Position numbers and translations under genes: made by a program | Notes under the pieces: generated by a model | Told to the model about the DNA's origin: nothing | The model's input: the letters and a program-made list of their open reading frames with translations, nothing else | Databases searched by the model: none | In this document: positions 11,937 through 52,995 of the stretch, piece after piece | Layout: every line of letters begins with the position of its first letter | Position numbering within the stretch: position 1 is the stretch's first letter | Origin: Candidatus Thorarchaeota archaeon | GTDB lineage: Archaea > Asgardarchaeota > Thorarchaeia > Thorarchaeales > Thorarchaeaceae | Assembly (NCBI GenBank): GCA_016933575.1 | Contig: JAFGAR010000088.1 | Location: forward strand, 1 to 64,000 | Reading direction: 5' to 3' | Length of the DNA: 64,000 nucleotides

Positions 11937-12056
11937 GCCGAGATAGCCAAGCTGGTCAACGGCGGTGGACTCAAGATCACAAAGCCATTGGCTTGACTCC
12001 GATGAGTTATCCACTCTTGTAGGAGTTCATGGGTTCGAATCCCATTCTCGGCACCA
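11937..12056 (+). tRNA. tRNA-Leu (anticodon CAA) with canonical 37/38 intron
   Basis: Acceptor GCCGAGA/TCTCGGC with discriminator A and encoded CCA, a class II long variable arm (12015-12028), and T-arm ATGGG-TTCGAAT-CCCAT. The anticodon stem GTGGA (11965-11969) pairs with TCCAC (12010-12014). Loop bases 32-37 are CTCAAG, giving anticodon CAA. The 33-nt intron is 11976-12008. Its bulge-helix-bulge is clear: CTCA (11970-11973) pairs with TGAG (12003-12006), leaving 3-nt bulges AGA and TTA cut after their second base. The intron body is an AAGCC/GGCTT hairpin. Confidence 0.93.
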
Positions 12057-14926: not shown

Positions 14927-16111
14927 TTGGCCGAACTCACAGCCCTATACAGTCTTGAGAGCCTTTTGGCTCTTGATGGAATTGATGAACTAGAACGAAT
15001 GAAGGCTGAAGTCAATCCATTCTGGAATAGACCGCGTTTTGATATTGCTTGGAGTCTACCGGTGATGTCAGGCCTCACTGAAGAGAGGAAAATCTCTGTA
15101 CAGCAAATGAGAGAGGCAAGCAGAGATGAATTGCTCTTGTTTCATGACCCATCCTATATCGAAACACTGGAACTATTTGGCAATACAGGATCCGCATTCT
15201 CGTCCCGATTTGGATTGGACACTCCCGAGTGTCCGGTTTTTCAGGATGTTCATAAATATGCAAGCCTTCCTGTTGGCGGGGTCATTGATGCTACAATTGG
15301 GGTTGCAGAAGGGAAATTCAAGAGTGCAATCTCCTTTGCAGGAGGATTTCATCATGCTATGGAGAGTCAGGCTGCGGGATTTTGTTATCTGAATGATACT
15401 GTGATTGCTATTAAGAAGTACAAGCAACTCAATCCGGGCAAGAAAGTGCTGTACTTGGATACTGACGTGCATCATGGAGATGGCACACAAGCGGCGTTCT
15501 ACGGAAACCCTGATGTACTTACAATATCCCTTCACGAATTTAGTATGGGATTCTTCCCAAGAACAGGAGGAGTAGAAGAGATTGGTAATGGAGAGGGAAA
15601 GGGATATTCCGTCAATTTACCATTGCCACCATTGACTGATGATGTTGAGTATTGGAGAGTTTTCGAAGATGTAGTCATCCCAATCTGGCAAGCTTACAAA
15701 CCAGACCTTGTGTTCTGGGACGTTGGTGCTGATGCTCATATTGGTGACCCCTTGGCAGATCTAATGCTCACATATGATACCTATCATCGATTGTCTATGA
15801 CTGTACGACAACTTGTCCACCTTGGAAGAAGACAATTAGTTGTTGTTGGTGGGGGTGGATATGAGCCTGTGACAGCAGCAAAGATTTGGACAATAGTATT
15901 AGCAGATCTTGCAGATGTTGCATTACCGCCAGCATTACCAATTGAGTGGGTACAGCTCGTTCAGAAATATGGTTGTACAATGAGAAGGAGTGGATGGACT
16001 GATAGACCAAGAAGGATGGAAGATGAACATTACCCAAAAATCAGTAGAGCTGTTGATGATGCCATCAAGAAAGTAAAGGAGCTCATATTCCCCACATTTG
16101 GTCTCGAATGA
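14927..16111 (+). CDS. Histone deacetylase / AcuC-like zinc deacetylase
   Basis: Class I/II HDAC-fold deacetylase that removes acetyl groups from lysines or small amines. The active site is intact: His-His dyad in GGFHHAMES, zinc ligands in DTDVHHGDGTQ and GADAHIGDPL, and the catalytic Tyr in GGGGYEP. At 394 residues it matches AcuC and archaeal HDAC-like enzymes. The TTG start at 14927 follows GTGAG. Candidate substrates include the acetyl-CoA synthetase encoded about 16 kb away or DNA-binding proteins. Neither is demonstrated here, and acetylpolyamine amidohydrolase activity is possible. Confidence 0.88.
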   Translation: MAELTALYSLESLLALDGIDELERMKAEVNPFWNRPRFDIAWSLPVMSGLTEERKISVQQMREASRDELLLFHDPSYIETLELFGNTGSAFSSRFGLDTPECPVFQDVHKYASLPVGGVIDATIGVAEGKFKSAISFAGGFHHAMESQAAGFCYLNDTVIAIKKYKQLNPGKKVLYLDTDVHHGDGTQAAFYGNPDVLTISLHEFSMGFFPRTGGVEEIGNGEGKGYSVNLPLPPLTDDVEYWRVFEDVVIPIWQAYKPDLVFWDVGADAHIGDPLADLMLTYDTYHRLSMTVRQLVHLGRRQLVVVGGGGYEPVTAAKIWTIVLADLADVALPPALPIEWVQLVQKYGCTMRRSGWTDRPRRMEDEHYPKISRAVDDAIKKVKELIFPTFGLE

Positions 16112-35417: not shown

Positions 35418-35475
35418 TGGAAACGCCTAAATACTCAGCCTAGTGAGTGTGTTCCATCCACCAGAGGTGACGACA

Positions 35476-37362
35476 GTGGTCGCGGCAGATTGGACTGATA
35501 AGTACAAGAACAAAATCCTGAGTGCTTCCAAAGCGATAACAAAGATTAGACGAGGTTCTAGGATTTTTCTAGGCACAGGTTGCGGTGTACCGTACCATCT
35601 TGTGCAAGAACTGGCGAGTCATGCAGATAAGATGGCAGACAACGAAATTGTTCATCTGCTGACTCTTGGTGATACGCCATCAGCTGATAAGAAATTTCAG
35701 AATCAATTCAGGCATAACACATTCTTCGTCAGTGCGAACATACGAGATGCTGTATCTGCAGGACGTGCAGATTATACTCCAATGATGTTATCGGAGATTC
35801 CAGATCTCTTCAGACAGAAACGAATGCCTCTGGATGTTGCTATGATACAGGTCAGTCCTCCCGACCGATACGGATACTGCTCTCTTGGCATATCTGTGGA
35901 CATAACAAAAGGAGCAGCAGAGAGTGCAGATATGGTCATTGCTCAAATCAATGATAGAATGCCAGTAACCCATGGAGATTCCTTTATTGACATAAGAGAT
36001 CTTGATTATCTTGTTCCATTCAATGAACCTCTGAGAGAGTTTCAGGGAGATGAGATCACAGAAACCATTGACCTCATAGGAAGCTATGTTGCAAGGCTTG
36101 TGGAAAATGAGTCAACTCTAGAACTTGGAATCGGAGCTCTTCCACAGTCAGTGTGCAATAATCTACTAGAAACTGGGGTGAAAGACGTTGGGATTCATAC
36201 AGAGATGTTCAGCGATAGTCTAGTGCCCCTGATTGACCAAGGAGTTGTAACGAACAAGAAGAAGTCAATCCATAGAGATAAAGTTGTAGCAAGCTTTGCC
36301 ATGGGATCAAACAAGCTTTATGACTATATAAATGACAATCCCATGTTCCAGTTTCACGATACTGCGTATGTCAATGATCCTTATGTCATTGGGCAGAACA
36401 GAAAGATGATAGCTATCAACTCAGCATTGGAAGTTGATCTAACTGGACAAGTATGTGCAGATTCTCTCGGTCACAGATTTTATAGTGGGATTGGCGGGCA
36501 GGTTGATTTCATTCGTGGAGCGAAGAGATCGATTGGAGGGAAAGCAATCATCTGCTTACTCTCAACAGCAATGGACGGTCAGGTTTCCAGGATTGTTCCA
36601 CAGTTAAGTGAAGGAGCAGGGGTTGTCACCACACGTGGAGATGTAGATGTAATCATCACTGAATACGGATTAGCGAATCTCCATGGCAAGACGATTCGAG
36701 AACGTGTGCTGTCACTGATTGCTATTGCAAATCCAAAATTCAGGAATGAATTGCTTGAAGCAGCAAAAGATATGCATTACGTCTTTGAAGATCAAGTCCC
36801 GTTCCTAGTTCAGGGTACATACTTTGCATCAGAATACGAAGTATCTGAAAGGTTCAAGGGACCTGATGGCCCTGTGGATGTTCATTTCAGATTAATTCGA
36901 CCTGATGATAGTGATAGAATCAAAGAACTATTTTATGGTCTTAGTGAAGAGAGCATTTACTTCAGATTCCTGACTCCACTCAAGACTCTTAGGAGACAGA
37001 CCCTTCAAGATTTCTACAATGTCGACCAATCAAGAGATATCAGCGTAGTAGCGGTTATAAAGTCGGACGAAGAGGGAGAGAGTGAGAAAATAATCGGTGC
37101 TGGTAGATACTTGCTTAATAGAAGCACAAATGAAGCTGAGTTTGCTCTACTCATAAATGATGATTTTCAGAATAAGGGGATTGGAACATTCTTACTCAAT
37201 CATCTCATGCGAATTGCAAAGAGTAAAGGTGTTGATGCGTTCATCGCGTATGTTCATCCGCAGAACCAACCAATGATTAGATTCATTCACAAGACAGGGA
37301 AGGTCGTAGAGAGTAAGATATCTATACAGGACGAGGAGTACGTATTTCGCCTCAAACTATAG
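35476..37362 (+). CDS. Acetyl-CoA hydrolase/CoA-transferase fused to GNAT domain
   Basis: A two-domain protein of about 628 residues. The first 430 residues are a class I CoA-transferase of the acetyl-CoA hydrolase / 4-hydroxybutyrate CoA-transferase type (GSRIFLGTGCGVP, ELGIGALPQSVCNNL, GLHTE-like VGIHTEMFSD, YSGIGGQVDFIRGAKRS, TEYGLANLHGKTIRER). The last 160 residues are a GNAT acetyltransferase with the acetyl-CoA loop NKGIGTFLLNHL. This fusion is known in bacteria. I choose GTG 35476 because AGAGGTGA precedes it; GTG 35443 is possible. The GNAT part might acetylate Acs, which is encoded nearby. Confidence 0.88.
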   Translation: MVAADWTDKYKNKILSASKAITKIRRGSRIFLGTGCGVPYHLVQELASHADKMADNEIVHLLTLGDTPSADKKFQNQFRHNTFFVSANIRDAVSAGRADYTPMMLSEIPDLFRQKRMPLDVAMIQVSPPDRYGYCSLGISVDITKGAAESADMVIAQINDRMPVTHGDSFIDIRDLDYLVPFNEPLREFQGDEITETIDLIGSYVARLVENESTLELGIGALPQSVCNNLLETGVKDVGIHTEMFSDSLVPLIDQGVVTNKKKSIHRDKVVASFAMGSNKLYDYINDNPMFQFHDTAYVNDPYVIGQNRKMIAINSALEVDLTGQVCADSLGHRFYSGIGGQVDFIRGAKRSIGGKAIICLLSTAMDGQVSRIVPQLSEGAGVVTTRGDVDVIITEYGLANLHGKTIRERVLSLIAIANPKFRNELLEAAKDMHYVFEDQVPFLVQGTYFASEYEVSERFKGPDGPVDVHFRLIRPDDSDRIKELFYGLSEESIYFRFLTPLKTLRRQTLQDFYNVDQSRDISVVAVIKSDEEGESEKIIGAGRYLLNRSTNEAEFALLINDDFQNKGIGTFLLNHLMRIAKSKGVDAFIAYVHPQNQPMIRFIHKTGKVVESKISIQDEEYVFRLKL

Positions 37363-38999: not shown

Positions 39000-39212
39000 G
39001 TGAAAAACTCACTTGAGAATATGACAGGCATAACGAGTTTCCCAGTAGTGGGTCACTTCACCAAGGAACAACTCGAGGCAATTGATAAGGTCTTACAATT
39101 ATTAGACTCTGAGGAGTTCAGAGACTATCATGACCAATTTGGAGTATGTAATGCTCCGGATATTATTGACACGCTCAGACGAAGTGTCCAGCAGGCCCTT
39201 GAGAGAGTCTAG
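39000..39212 (+). CDS. Small hypothetical protein
   Basis: A 70-residue soluble protein beginning at GTG 39000, with an amphipathic helical segment (FTKEQLEAIDKVLQLLDSEEFRDYHDQFG) and a second helix (DIIDTLRRSVQQALERV). It has no recognisable motif. A Met at codon 8 is an alternative start. No clear Shine-Dalgarno site precedes it. It stands between a candidate structured RNA and a small membrane protein gene that converges on it after 5 bases. Confidence 0.5.
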   Translation: MKNSLENMTGITSFPVVGHFTKEQLEAIDKVLQLLDSEEFRDYHDQFGVCNAPDIIDTLRRSVQQALERV

Positions 39213-39217
39213 AGGTT

Positions 39218-39472
39218 TTAGACCAGTACAAAGTTTGGTGGAAAGAGCACAAAATACTCTATCACAATAGAGAGAAGAATTCCACTGAAGACTAGACCAC
39301 GTCCACGTTTCATATTCACCTCTGTAAACCAGAGTATTGCACCGATGAGAACAATGATGACCCCTGATATTTGGCCAATGAATATCAGGAAGTCCCAGAT
39401 TTCAATGAGATAAGCCCCAATCAATTGTGCAAAGTTTACCAATGGCGATTGCAATAGTAACGAGAGATCCAT
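39218..39472 (-). CDS. Small two- or three-helix membrane protein
   Basis: An 84-residue hydrophobic protein. Helices are around residues 9-30, 33-50 (ISGVIIVLIGAILWF) and 58-78 (LVFSGILLSIVIEYFVLFP), separated by a basic loop (EVNMKRGRG). It is not recognised as a known family. It lies between tRNA-Ile and the small gene at 39000. Its start codon is about 75 bases from the tRNA 3' end. Confidence 0.55.
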   Translation of the reverse strand: MDLSLLLQSPLVNFAQLIGAYLIEIWDFLIFIGQISGVIIVLIGAILWFTEVNMKRGRGLVFSGILLSIVIEYFVLFPPNFVLV

Positions 39473-39548
39473 GTACTCGACCCAGAAATCAGTGAGTCTC
39501 TGCTAATTTAAAGTCGTAGAGATACGGTGAGTAACAATCAAGAGAGAG

Positions 39549-39687
39549 TGGTGGGCCCGACGCGATGAATTCCAGTTGGGCAAATCCCATACTGTTTGAA
39601 CGCGCGATATCCGCCTTATCAGAGCGGCGCTATAATTGACTAAGGAAAACGAAGGTCGTTGACCTTTCCAGTCTAAGCCACGGGCCC
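39549..39687 (-). tRNA. tRNA-Ile (anticodon GAT) with D-loop and T-loop introns
   Basis: Acceptor GGGCCCG (39681-39687) pairs with CGGGCCC (39553-39559), discriminator A and encoded CCA. The anticodon arm is CCGCT-CTGATAA-GGCGG, giving GAT, with no intron there. Two inserts break the gene. Intron 1 (39636-39667, 32 nt) lies after G19 of the D-loop: GACT pairs with AGTC, bulges GGA and AAT, inner helix AAGG/CCTT. Intron 2 (39567-39595, 29 nt) lies in the T-loop at 58/59: GTTC pairs with GAAT, inner helix CAGT/ACTG. Removing both leaves a 78-nt tRNA with T-stem GCGCG/CGCGT and T-loop TTCAAAT. One T-T mismatch remains in the D-stem. Confidence 0.88.
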
Positions 39688-39760
39688 ATTGCATTCGTAG
39701 ACGGCTGCATATCGAAAGTGGATAAAAACGTTATGACTGTGTGTCAAACAAGAGATGCCT

Positions 39761-40657
39761 CTAGAGAACTTCTGGAACTATGTGTTTAATTTTGTCTAAT
39801 GATTCTTGGGCTTCAGACCTTGTAAGTTCAAAGATAATAGGCCCATCAAAGTCATCAGCAGATAAAGCTAGAAGGAATTCTCGAAGAACTTCATCACCCA
39901 TAATGCCACGACCAAGAGCAACATGATCCTCACGAGCTATTGCACCATCATATTCATGATAAATCCCATCTTGGAGATGTATCTCTATTATTCGATCCTT
40001 ATGGGTTGCATAGAACTCCATTACAGATTCATTTCCAGACATATGAGTAATCAGATGAGCTGTGTCAAAGCAGATGCTTGTATCAAGATCATCTATCATA
40101 TCCCGCGTAACGTCAAACGGAAACATACAATTCTCAATTGCTAGTCTTCGTGGTTTAATTTCTGTCTGCGTGATAATCTCTTCAATACTCTGCATGGAAA
40201 ATCCTGACAATAGCATACATATCAAACGAACCGTGTTATTTGAATATGGCAGGGTTGAGAATTCAGCAGCTAAAGCCCCAGTAGCATGTAAGACGTAAGC
40301 CTCTGGCTCCAGTCGTTCAGCCAGTCTTATGCACTCTACTTGACTCTTGACACTACCTTGACGTACTGGTTCATTGAAGGTCGCAAGTTCAATTGACCAG
40401 AAGGGAAGATGTATCGTATAAGCTAATCCAAGTTCATCCTTTAAATCTACGAGTTGATCAATTGCTTTTGGAGTAAAAATAGAATCGAGAATATATTGTG
40501 CATCCATTGAAATCTCTGCAACCGAAAATCCTGAAGTTGCAGTATCTCTTACCGGGTTGACTACATTGACCAGAGAGAAGTCTGGAATTCCATCGACTAT
40601 TACCTGTTGTGCAGTTGACTGAAAATCAAGAGCAGTTAGACCAAATCTAAAAGGCAT
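39761..40657 (-). CDS. Xylose isomerase-like TIM-barrel protein (AP2Ec)
   Basis: A 298-residue TIM-barrel protein of the sugar phosphate isomerase/epimerase or AP endonuclease 2 superfamily. Metal ligands are suggested by LAIENCMFP (Glu), SICFDTAHLITHM (Asp and His), IEIHLQDGIYHEYDG (His), DHVALGRGIMG and the closing PIIFELTRSEAQESL (Glu). The reaction is unknown; members include isomerases, epimerases and repair nucleases. It follows the cysteine desulfurase-SelD gene after about 30 bases and is probably in its operon, but no link to selenium is evident. Confidence 0.8.
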   Translation of the reverse strand: MPFRFGLTALDFQSTAQQVIVDGIPDFSLVNVVNPVRDTATSGFSVAEISMDAQYILDSIFTPKAIDQLVDLKDELGLAYTIHLPFWSIELATFNEPVRQGSVKSQVECIRLAERLEPEAYVLHATGALAAEFSTLPYSNNTVRLICMLLSGFSMQSIEEIITQTEIKPRRLAIENCMFPFDVTRDMIDDLDTSICFDTAHLITHMSGNESVMEFYATHKDRIIEIHLQDGIYHEYDGAIAREDHVALGRGIMGDEVLREFLLALSADDFDGPIIFELTRSEAQESLDKIKHIVPEVL

Positions 40658-40690: not shown

Positions 40691-42919
40691 TCATTCTTCA
40701 ACATTAATTCTACCAGTTCCAACGCCTGTTACGATTCCAATTATAGATGCTTCAGAAACTCCCTGAGCCTTAAGGGATTCTACTAGGGTTTCAGCCCGAT
40801 TAACAGGCAGAGAGATCAGTAATCCGCCAGATGTCTGAGCATCTGCTAATAATAATTGAGTTGCTCTTGAGATACTATTGGCAAAGGCGACATATGGTTC
40901 TACATAGGCCAAGTTATTTATCGTACCACCGGGTACCACACCTGTTCCTGCTAAATCACGCGCCTCCTTCAAGATTGGAATAGCACTTACGTTGATTGAC
41001 ACATCCACGCGACTTCCAGCAGCCATCTCATACAAGTGTCCTAATAATCCAAAGCCGGTAATATCTGTGCAGGCGTTGACGCCAATTTGTGTCATTAGTT
41101 CTGCAGCCTGACGATTCAGTGTTGCCATGATCTTGGCAATTTTAGTCCTCGTCACTTCATCAAGTAGTCCTCGCTTGGCAGCTGTTGATAGGATGCCTAC
41201 GCCCAGAGGTTTGGTCAATATGAGAGCATCACCGGGTAGTGCAGTGCTGTTTCTTATGACTCTATCAGGATGGACTAGTCCTGTTACAGCAAGTCCATAC
41301 TTAGGTTCAGTATCATCAACGGTATGACCGCCAATGATACTTATTCCAGCCTCTGAAGCCTTGTCCTGAGCTCCACGTAAGATGTCTTGGAGAACCGAGA
41401 GAGGAAGACGGTTCGAGGGAAAACCTACAATGTTTAAGGCAAATAATGGTTTTGCCCCCATGGCATAAATATCACTTAGAGAGTTAGCTGCAGAAATTGC
41501 ACCAAACCAATAGGGGTCATCAACTATTGGAGTGAAAAAATCCACGGTTTCAACAATTGCTACATCATCACTAATCTTGTAGACTGCCGCATCATCAGAA
41601 GTTTCTACTCCAACTACTATTGCAGGATCAGATGGTAGTGAAAATCCCCGAAGCACTTCTTCTAGTGCTTGAGGTCTCAGTTTGCAGGCGCAGCCAAGAC
41701 CATGCGTATATCGGGTTAGTTTGTACTCACCAGATCCAATAGGAACTTCCAGTCTTAGTTCTGTGTCAAGAGGTTGTAATCGACGGACCGCCTCGATTAT
41801 GACTGGAGTTGCTCTATCAATATCATCTGTAGTGGTATCCCGACCCACTGAGAAACGAACTGTTCCCATAGCCCATTCTATAGGAACATGCATGGCTTCA
41901 AGTACTGCGGAAACATCAACTTTATCCGCATGGCAGGCAGCGCCCGCAGAGGCTGCAACTCGGTCATTTATCTCTGAGAGAAGTGTATTGGCCTCTACAC
42001 CTTTAAAACTGACACTCAATGTATTTGGTAAGCGTAACTCAGGATGACCATTGGTCTTGATAGCATCACTGCCCAGCTCTTTGACAAGTTGCTGGGAGAG
42101 TCTATCACGCATCTCACTGAATTGCAGCATATTAGTATTCAAATCACGTGATGCTATCTCACAAGCTTTTCCAAGCCCTACAATTAGAAGAACATTCTCA
42201 GTACCTGGACGCTTCGCACCCTCTTGTCCAGCTCCATGCATGAGCAGATTCAACTTAATACCCTCACGTATGTAGAGAGCACCTACACCTTTGGGAGCAT
42301 AGAGCTTGTGTCCAGCAATTGATAGTAAGTCAACACCAAGATCGTCTACCATTACTGGTATTTTCCCTACAGACTGGGCAGCATCGGTATGAATCAATGC
42401 ACCATGTCTATGTGCAATCTTTGCTAACTCCTGAATTGGCTGAATTGTACCTACTTCGTTATTTGCATGCATGATAGTGACAAGAATAGTATCCGAGGTG
42501 ATTGATTCCTCCAAATCCAATGGGTTTACAAGACCATATTCATCAACGGGAAGAATTGTGATTCGGAACCCCTGATCCTTTAGCCAAGAACAGACCTCAA
42601 CCACAGCAGGGTGTTCTACTGCAGAAGTAATGATATGATTACCTCGTTCACGATAGGCTAGAGCTACTCCTTTGATTGCATAGTTGTTGCTCTCTGTTCC
42701 ACCACTAGTAAAGATAATCTCTGATTGTTGACAACCAATTAATGACCCCACTTGAGACCGTGCAGTTTCCACAGCTCTCTTAGCAACAGATCCATAGGGA
42801 TGATTACTTGATGGATTCCCAAAGTGCTCATACAAATAGGGAGTCATAGTCTCAGCCACCTCTCGAGCAATCGGCGTCGTAGCATTATAGTCAAGATAGA
42901 TTGGTTTCTTATTCGACAT
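40691..42919 (-). CDS. selD: Cysteine desulfurase-selenophosphate synthetase fusion
   Basis: A protein of about 742 residues joining two enzymes of selenium or sulfur mobilisation. Residues 1 to about 385 are a NifS/IscS-type PLP desulfurase: YLDYNATTP, SGGTESNNYAIKG, ITSAVEHPA, the PLP-lysine motif SIAGHKLYAPKGVGAL, and the Cys loop SAGAACHAD. The rest is SelD: LTRYTHGLGCACKLRPQ with catalytic Cys and Lys, ETSDDAAVYKI, DIYAMGAKPLFALNIVGFP and IIGGHTVDDTEPKYGLAVTG. The desulfurase would deliver selenium directly to SelD to make selenophosphate. I use the ATG at 42919 because GGTGAG precedes it. Confidence 0.93.
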   Translation of the reverse strand: MSNKKPIYLDYNATTPIAREVAETMTPYLYEHFGNPSSNHPYGSVAKRAVETARSQVGSLIGCQQSEIIFTSGGTESNNYAIKGVALAYRERGNHIITSAVEHPAVVEVCSWLKDQGFRITILPVDEYGLVNPLDLEESITSDTILVTIMHANNEVGTIQPIQELAKIAHRHGALIHTDAAQSVGKIPVMVDDLGVDLLSIAGHKLYAPKGVGALYIREGIKLNLLMHGAGQEGAKRPGTENVLLIVGLGKACEIASRDLNTNMLQFSEMRDRLSQQLVKELGSDAIKTNGHPELRLPNTLSVSFKGVEANTLLSEINDRVAASAGAACHADKVDVSAVLEAMHVPIEWAMGTVRFSVGRDTTTDDIDRATPVIIEAVRRLQPLDTELRLEVPIGSGEYKLTRYTHGLGCACKLRPQALEEVLRGFSLPSDPAIVVGVETSDDAAVYKISDDVAIVETVDFFTPIVDDPYWFGAISAANSLSDIYAMGAKPLFALNIVGFPSNRLPLSVLQDILRGAQDKASEAGISIIGGHTVDDTEPKYGLAVTGLVHPDRVIRNSTALPGDALILTKPLGVGILSTAAKRGLLDEVTRTKIAKIMATLNRQAAELMTQIGVNACTDITGFGLLGHLYEMAAGSRVDVSINVSAIPILKEARDLAGTGVVPGGTINNLAYVEPYVAFANSISRATQLLLADAQTSGGLLISLPVNRAETLVESLKAQGVSEASIIGIVTGVGTGRINVEE

Positions 42920-43099
42920 GGAGTCACTCACCAAGAGAACAGGTTACTGTCCGGATAGCTCTAAACACAACCTTTCAATCTTACGAATGGACTGTGTACC
43001 AATAGTTCAAAAGGTTGAGGAATTATCAAGTTGGATAGAATATACTATCTTATGAAAGACATATACATCGCTATGTATTGACATAGAGAGGCGATTCTA

Positions 43100-49898: not shown

Positions 49899-50035
49899 TG
49901 GTGGGTCGGGGGAGATTTGTTCCAATAGGGAGAAGTTCCCTATTGATTGAACTCCCGATCCCTTGGAATCTTGCTTACGAACAGATGTCCGCAAGACCCA
50001 AACCAAGAATCATAGCCAATCTAGACCACCGGCCC
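49899..50035 (-). tRNA. tRNA-Pro (anticodon TGG) with 37/38 and T-loop introns
   Basis: Acceptor GGGCCGG (50029-50035) pairs with CCGACCC (49903-49909) except for a C4-A69 mismatch, discriminator A, encoded CCA. D-arm GTCT...TGAT. The anticodon stem CTTGG/CCAAG carries anticodon TGG. Intron 1 (49968-49996, 29 nt) is at 37/38: TTTG pairs with CAAG, bulges GGT and ATT, inner helix CTTGC/GTAAG. Intron 2 (49922-49951 minus the exon bases; about 49917-49946, 30 nt) is at 58/59 in the T-loop: GTTC pairs with GAAC and the body is a CAATAGGGA/TCCCTATTG hairpin. Splicing leaves a 78-nt tRNA with T-stem GGGAG/CTCCC and loop TTCAAAT. Confidence 0.85.
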
Positions 50036-52855: not shown

Positions 52856-52995
52856 TGGAGCCCCAGGCGAGATTTGTTCCACATTGAAGAGTTTTCAATA
52901 TGTTTGAACTCGCGGCCTCCTCCTTACCAAGGAGGCGATCTTTGAGGGTATGGGTGGGCGAATCCACCTAACTAACCGGTCTAAGCTACTGGGGC
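52856..52995 (-). tRNA. tRNA-Thr (anticodon GGT) with T-loop intron and D-arm insert
   Basis: Acceptor GCCCCAG (52989-52995) pairs with CTGGGGC (52860-52866), discriminator T and encoded CCA. The anticodon arm CCTCC-TTGGTAA-GGAGG gives GGT with no intron. The T-stem GCGAG/CTCGC is interrupted in the loop by about 30 nt (52874-52903): GTTC pairs with GAAC and the body is a nine-pair hairpin CATATTGAA/TTCAATGTG. Removal gives TTCAAAT. The D-arm holds about 32 extra bases between GCTTAGACCGG (52976-52986) and GATCG (52936-52940), including a GGTGG/CCACC hairpin. I could not find a strict bulge-helix-bulge there, so those splice points are unresolved. Confidence 0.82.

Follow-up and report, generated by a model that had tools for sequence, protein, structure and literature searches.

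Does a single archaeal tRNA gene carry two introns, one in its D-loop and one in its T-loop, while its anticodon loop is left whole? The question is raised by a 139-nt segment of the window, that is, the whole 64-kb stretch (64,000 nucleotides) of Thorarchaeota DNA analysed here, in which a sequence-only reading had proposed such a tRNA-Ile gene. On the evidence below, both inserts are very likely bulge-helix-bulge introns of the sole tRNA-Ile(GAT) gene found, predicted to be cut out by a two-subunit endonuclease, with RtcB as the likely ligase of the exons. The two-intron gene is very likely functional, as judged from sequence comparisons.

The interrupted gene and its detection

The locus consists of the following parts:

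39549..39687, minus strand: tRNA-Ile(GAT) precursor gene, 139 nt, CCA encoded, 76.5 bits with the Ile model (R1)
39668..39687, minus strand: exon 1, 20 nt, from the 5' strand of the acceptor stem up to G19 in the D-loop
39636..39667, minus strand: D-loop intron, 32 nt, at position 19/20, with central helix GACT/AGTC and 3-nt bulges GGA and AAT
39596..39635, minus strand: exon 2, 40 nt, remaining D-arm, unbroken anticodon arm with GAT, variable arm and 5' side of the T-arm
39567..39595, minus strand: T-loop intron, 29 nt, at position 58/59 or 59/60, with central helix GTTC/GAAT, inner hairpin and longer 3' bulge (relaxed motif)
39549..39566, minus strand: exon 3, 18 nt, 3' side of the T-arm, acceptor 3' strand and CCA
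39721..39728, minus strand: TATA-like box TTTTTATC, starting 41 nt upstream of the gene

The coordinates and the splice arithmetic agree with the earlier claim that a cloverleaf appears only without 39636-39667 (32 nt) and 39567-39595 (29 nt). The predicted spliced product is 78 nt long and has TTCAAAT in its T-loop, as had been noted beforehand, both of the middle helices named at that time (GACT/AGTC and GTTC/GAAT) are present in the inserts, and the anticodon arm is whole, with no intron in its loop. Cutting the T-loop after product nucleotide 60 or after 61 (58/59 or 59/60) has an identical outcome. Boxes like that of the study gene start between 33 and 58 nt upstream at all 51 of the 51 related loci, the study locus counted (regular expression, four close variants).

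ARAGORN identified the spliced 78-mer as tRNA-Ile(gat) and reported nothing on the unspliced 139-nt gene, with or without its intron option, an option that does detect the tRNA-Leu(CAA) of the same window. At E<=10, Rfam cmscan detected no tRNA in 39000-40300; the single other match near the locus was a plus-strand riboswitch at E 3.8, below the cut-off and at chance level. The gene was also not among the matches of a whole-genome RF00005 search at E<=10 (150 of 181 candidates scored). The expectation that standard scanners would miss the gene was therefore borne out for ARAGORN and Rfam; tRNAscan-SE 2.0 is described as looking for non-canonical tRNA introns (PMC8450103).

In a splice scan, the unspliced sequence and all one- and two-intron removals fitting our own bulge-helix-bulge definition were compared (350 sequences), and the top tRNA (ARAGORN 115.5) was precisely the one with the D-loop and T-loop introns removed. 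No tRNA was obtained from any of 200 dinucleotide shuffles of the gene (93,690 sequences). Among 300 random window segments one gave a tRNA, at 105.8, and none reached 115.5. The scan was weak elsewhere, with implausible products at several other tRNA loci (e.g. L012, L013, L019 and L166), no product at some (L009, L021 and L027-L029), and only a partial tRNA (100.5) for a tRNA-Thr gene of the window, whose D insert was placed instead by comparison with the insert-free gene (L201) of the relative G010.

Structure of the inserts and the predicted splicing machinery

In the precursor, either insert is predicted to form a hairpin that lengthens the D- or T-arm. In the D-loop, exon GACT would pair with intron AGTC, leaving two 3-nt bulges (GGA and AAT) at the expected cut sites, after GG and after AA, which is the archaeal bulge-helix-bulge arrangement. 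In the T-loop, the GTTC that is near-universal in tRNAs would pair with an intron-borne GAAT; the 5' bulge has 3 nt (AAA), the 3' bulge has 5 nt rather than 3, and the central helix is near-invariant. A relaxed motif of this kind would be accepted by two-subunit endonucleases with a lysine loop. Removal of the inserts restores a complete tRNA-Ile equal to a natural intronless gene, as is characteristic of archaeal bulge-helix-bulge introns. Self-splicing group I and II introns have a ribozyme core of hundreds of bases; they were rejected as candidates for these inserts of 32 and 29 nt, which gave no such Rfam match at E<=10.

The folded precursor of the study gene kept its acceptor, anticodon and T stems and displayed both hairpins (z -3.06, with 2 of 200 shuffles as low). 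Two of the three precursors folded were those of related loci, L049, which resembled the study gene, and L047, whose D-arm was paired otherwise. When folded alone, the D-elements gave z values of -1.63, -3.64, -0.76 and -1.45, not strongly stable except for one of the four, and the T-elements gave -2.86, -3.00, -2.39, -2.61 and -2.98. The central GTTC/GAAT helix was not drawn in the minimum-energy fold of the T-intron element.

Covariation was observed in both inserts. Across nine D-intron elements, 97.1% of 139 pair cells were standard, a proportion reached by none of 500 shuffles, and six pairs showed changes on both sides, one of these being in the exonic D-stem; the count of pair types was equalled by 20 of the 500. 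One pair joins exon to intron and is A-U in seven sequences and C-G in two, so that exon C instead of A goes with intron G instead of U. Across six T-intron elements, 93.8% of 96 pair cells were paired and the covariation score was equalled by 0/500 shuffles; two of the five measures fell within the shuffle range (277/500 and 435/500 as high), and three of the five two-sided pairs belong to the exonic T-stem. Covariation gives no test of the central helix of the T-intron because this helix is bound to the invariant GTTC and hardly varies. The T-intron alignment comprises six of the 12 T-intron sequences: L054, L059, L058, L041 and L042 were left out, and L045 was dropped for its gapped alignment, with the insert one or two bases further on.

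Two endonuclease genes were found in the host genome, encoding a 188-aa catalytic alpha subunit and a 213-aa beta subunit. The alpha subunit aligns nearly end to end with that of A. pernix (E 1.5e-44, residues 11-188; PDB 3p1z, 3ajv), keeps the Tyr/His/Lys catalytic residues and has a loop lysine matching A. pernix K44. In the beta subunit an Asn is aligned to the catalytic His, as read from the printed alignment. The loop lysine is present in 26 of 26 alpha subunits read, drawn from the 30 best loci (L111, L118, L121 and L123 unread), and endonuclease genes occur in 59 of 59 genomes, 51 of which have two. With alpha and beta subunits, catalytic triad and loop lysine, the host is predicted to encode the endonuclease type able to cut relaxed motifs. 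In one study, the crenarchaeal loop lysine is said to widen the substrate range, relaxed-motif introns are removed efficiently only by (alpha-beta)2 and epsilon2 enzymes, and one loop-less (alpha-beta)2 enzyme removes them only slightly (PMC6379350). The Asgard alpha subunit shares its catalytic residues and loop lysine with the crenarchaeal (alpha-beta)2 enzyme that bears what is described there as a Crenarchaea-specific loop (PMC6379350); since the loop was found here in Asgard archaea, it is not confined to crenarchaea.

The two-subunit endonuclease would excise both introns, and RtcB would likely rejoin the exons. RtcB was searched for in the host assembly (3.47 Mb in 215 contigs, 85.5% completeness) and not found; it was detected in 56 of the 59 genomes searched, the host being among the three without it. 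This gap is put down to assembly completeness, because RtcB was matched in every one of the 15 relatives from the same genus. Splicing without RtcB was considered and rejected, given its presence in 56/59 genomes. We infer the cutting, the joining and the order of both events; the sequences, the twins described below, the covariation and the enzyme genes were observed directly.

Intronless twins and intron gain or loss among relatives

The predicted 78-nt product is identical at 78 of 78 positions to the intronless tRNA-Ile of the same-genus genome G010 (Thorarchaeota 4_1_July_SF_Bin37), and the study gene reduces to this twin in one way only, if the one-base ambiguity of the T-loop cut is set aside. 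Within the genus, relatives with both inserts, with either one and with none all occur. From 51 loci, with duplicate records of one genome counted apart, 28 distinct tRNA-Ile sequences were obtained and classed by eye according to their inserts: five have both, four D only, seven T only, one an insert in the variable arm and 11 none. Exact reduction to an intronless sequence of the set was found for all five two-intron sequences and for 10 of the 17 intron-bearing ones, a count that leaves out a contrived split solution for L058. The genome G036 has two tRNA-Ile(GAT) copies (L057 and L061) within a duplicated segment (1.24 kb, 85% identity), and the T insert is present in one copy and absent from the other. 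A tRNA-Ile found by the model in G005 has, by eye, an anticodon-loop intron. At least one neighbour gene of the study locus was matched in 44 of 51 loci, including 12 of 12 same-genus loci (gene order unconsidered).

Could the locus be a decayed tRNA-Ile pseudogene with two chance insertions, the cell being served by a separate intact gene? We regard this as highly improbable. A second gene could be missing from an 85.5%-complete assembly, and G036 does have one tRNA-Ile(GAT) gene with and another without the T insert. However, the exons are identical to an intronless gene of a relative, the inserts covary with exon bases, both inserts occur at the same sites in several species, and the promoter-like box is retained. 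The second intact tRNA-Ile(GAT) that would have spoken against the sequence-only reading was sought in the host assembly, and none was found by pattern or by model (150 of 1119 candidates scored): the pattern, with up to three mismatches, matched in 25 of 59 genomes including the host, which had a single match.

Less likely still is a reading in which a single insert, presumably that of the D-loop with its full motif, is a true intron and the T-loop insert stays in place or leaves by another route; we give this reading next to no credence. The relaxed motif of the T insert, its longer 3' bulge and the absence of its central helix from the fold are on the side of such a reading. Against it stand exact T-insert-free twins, including two paralogues within one genome, and similarly shaped inserts in the T-loops of Pro and Thr genes and, with the isotype read by eye, of Leu and Val genes. 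In addition, a 29-nt insert in the tRNA elbow would hardly be compatible with the contact between D-loop and T-loop. Overall, the intron-minus twin, the intron-exon covariation, the fitting endonuclease genes and the Thorarchaeota relatives support a two-intron tRNA-Ile(GAT) in an Asgard genome.

Gain and loss were argued from exon-identical groups with differing introns. Insert states differ within each of the two exon groups, which implies more than one change of either insert, provided that these groups are separate lineages. At the level of sequence, the presence/absence pattern shows that introns were gained or lost among close relatives.

Other interrupted tRNA genes and the distribution of T-loop introns

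The Ile model built here revealed a tRNA-Thr(GGT) and a tRNA-Pro(TGG) in the window, both of which were missed by ARAGORN with its intron option and by Rfam at E<=10. With the tRNA-Leu mentioned above, these genes are:

52856..52995, minus strand: tRNA-Thr(GGT), of the same architecture, with D-arm insert 52940-52971 (32 nt, or shifted by one base) and T-loop intron 52874-52903 (30 nt)
49899..50035, minus strand: tRNA-Pro(TGG), with anticodon-loop intron 49968-49996 (29 nt) and T-loop intron 49917-49946 (30 nt)
11937-12056, plus strand: tRNA-Leu(CAA), interrupted in the anticodon loop by a canonical 33-nt intron

A 'tRNA-???' reported by ARAGORN at 15266-15346 (plus strand) lies inside a 394-aa open frame (14927-16111) and is probably false. 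Elsewhere in the host genome, a tRNA-Pro (GGG by eye) has a T-loop intron, an intron interrupts the D-loop of Arg-TCG, Arg-TCT and Ala-GGC after nucleotide 20, and ARAGORN reported a tRNA-SeC (L024). Within the window, a single open frame at 40691-42934 (minus strand) combines a NifS-like cysteine desulfurase with the selenophosphate synthase SelD, and at 35443-37362 (plus strand) acetyl-CoA hydrolase/transferase domains are fused to a GNAT acetyltransferase domain.

With a T-arm model at E<=0.01, at least 86 matches of insert-bearing length were found in at least 39 of 47 family genomes, including the host, besides at least 29 short, insert-free ones. These searches scored part of the candidates (e.g. 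119 of about 2000 per genome), which makes the counts lower bounds and absences weak. In a wider draw, matches at E<=1e-4 were found in at least 44 of 158 genomes of the phylum, 31 of them in the family. A pattern check showed a tRNA with a T-loop intron at 19 of the 28 loci examined and, outside the family, where it covered five of the matched loci, at one. By eye, a tRNA-Arg(TCT) of G026 (L208) has three inserts, in the D-loop, the anticodon loop and the T-loop.

T-arm matches are not all working tRNAs, since two of the six in the host genome are orphan 3' ends. These tRNA-Leu 3' ends (L214; G000:C64:171700-172900) lie near 171897 and 172376, about 480 bases apart in the same orientation, and each has a T-loop insert, one being decayed. 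They might be remnants or attachment sites. A split tRNA-Leu was rejected for now, as a search with a 5'-half pattern gave three matches, all known tRNA genes, one of which (78409) was partly resolved.

How did these introns arise? On average, the Pro (GGG by eye) T-intron of G009 has 19.0 of 29 bases in common with each of six Ile introns (18.6 over all pairs). Structure-matched random introns share 11.9, and 8 of 20000 were as high as the Pro-Ile likeness, by our own rough null on hand-picked introns of 29 nt. This likeness points to a putative common origin of T-introns across isotypes. The recurring D- and T-introns may instead be old and vertically inherited, with repeated exact loss and no movement from gene to gene, a history that would be compatible with the splicing explanation and to which we give not quite an even chance. 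That the D-introns of both exon groups are alike in sequence, and that a neighbour gene is matched in 44/51 loci (12/12 in the genus), fits such inheritance, whereas the resemblance of the tRNA-Ile and tRNA-Pro T-introns across isotypes does not. Tentatively, and with some doubt, we propose that T-loop introns are mobile mini-introns of about 30 nt that may spread among Thorarchaeota tRNA genes, combining the universal T-loop GTTC with an intron-borne GAAY and helped by the lysine-loop endonuclease. The Ile-Pro likeness resembles the transposition of tRNA introns that one report describes in Thermoproteales (PMC4090602).

The earlier view that non-anticodon introns are established mainly in Thermoproteales was not borne out, as Thaumarchaeota and two other Asgard classes also have them (PMC8450103, PMC11291895). 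Such introns are well documented for crenarchaea (PMC3218864) and numerous in Thaumarchaeota (PMC8450103). Atabeyarchaeia and Freyarchaeia were reported in 2024 to have introns in 92-95% of their tRNA genes, many of them away from the canonical position, with several introns in more than half of the genes (PMC11291895). The latter are other Asgard classes, and the text consulted mentions neither twins that lack the introns nor a T-loop family nor the loop of the endonuclease (PMC11291895). Thermoproteales are likewise described as having introns in the D- and T-arms (at 20/21, 56/57, 59/60 and further positions), more than one intron in a gene, introns that resemble each other across different tRNAs, and a two-subunit endonuclease (PMC4090602, PMC3218864). 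Unlike in Thermoproteales, the positions here are 19/20 and 58/59 (or 59/60), the T-loop set has one compact hairpin plan ending in GGAAY plus two bases, and the lineage is Thorarchaeota: exact matches to the middle exon comprised 25 stretches, of which 21 are from Thorarchaeota, two from Lokiarchaeota and two labelled 'archaeon', a host range that is not that of Thermoproteales-type introns. A search of open-licence literature by title and start of abstract found no dedicated report of non-canonical tRNA introns in Thorarchaeota, which is weak evidence. The new elements here are the naturally occurring intron-minus twins and the shared family of T-loop introns, non-canonical Asgard tRNA introns having already been published in 2024.

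Because three tRNA genes of this 64-kb window escape both ARAGORN with its intron option and Rfam, Asgard genomes may have more tRNA genes than it seems. The intron-plus and intron-minus alleles within one genus, together with the pair with and without an insert in one genome, constitute a natural test bed for the gain and loss of tRNA introns. The lysine loop of the Asgard endonuclease predicts that a wide range of substrates would be cut in this lineage, which is close to eukaryotes; the splicing endonuclease of eukaryotes has been proposed to descend from two-subunit enzymes of such a type (PMC6379350). If T-loop introns are indeed mobile, such an intron could land in any isotype and still be excised, each tRNA already having half of the splicing signal.
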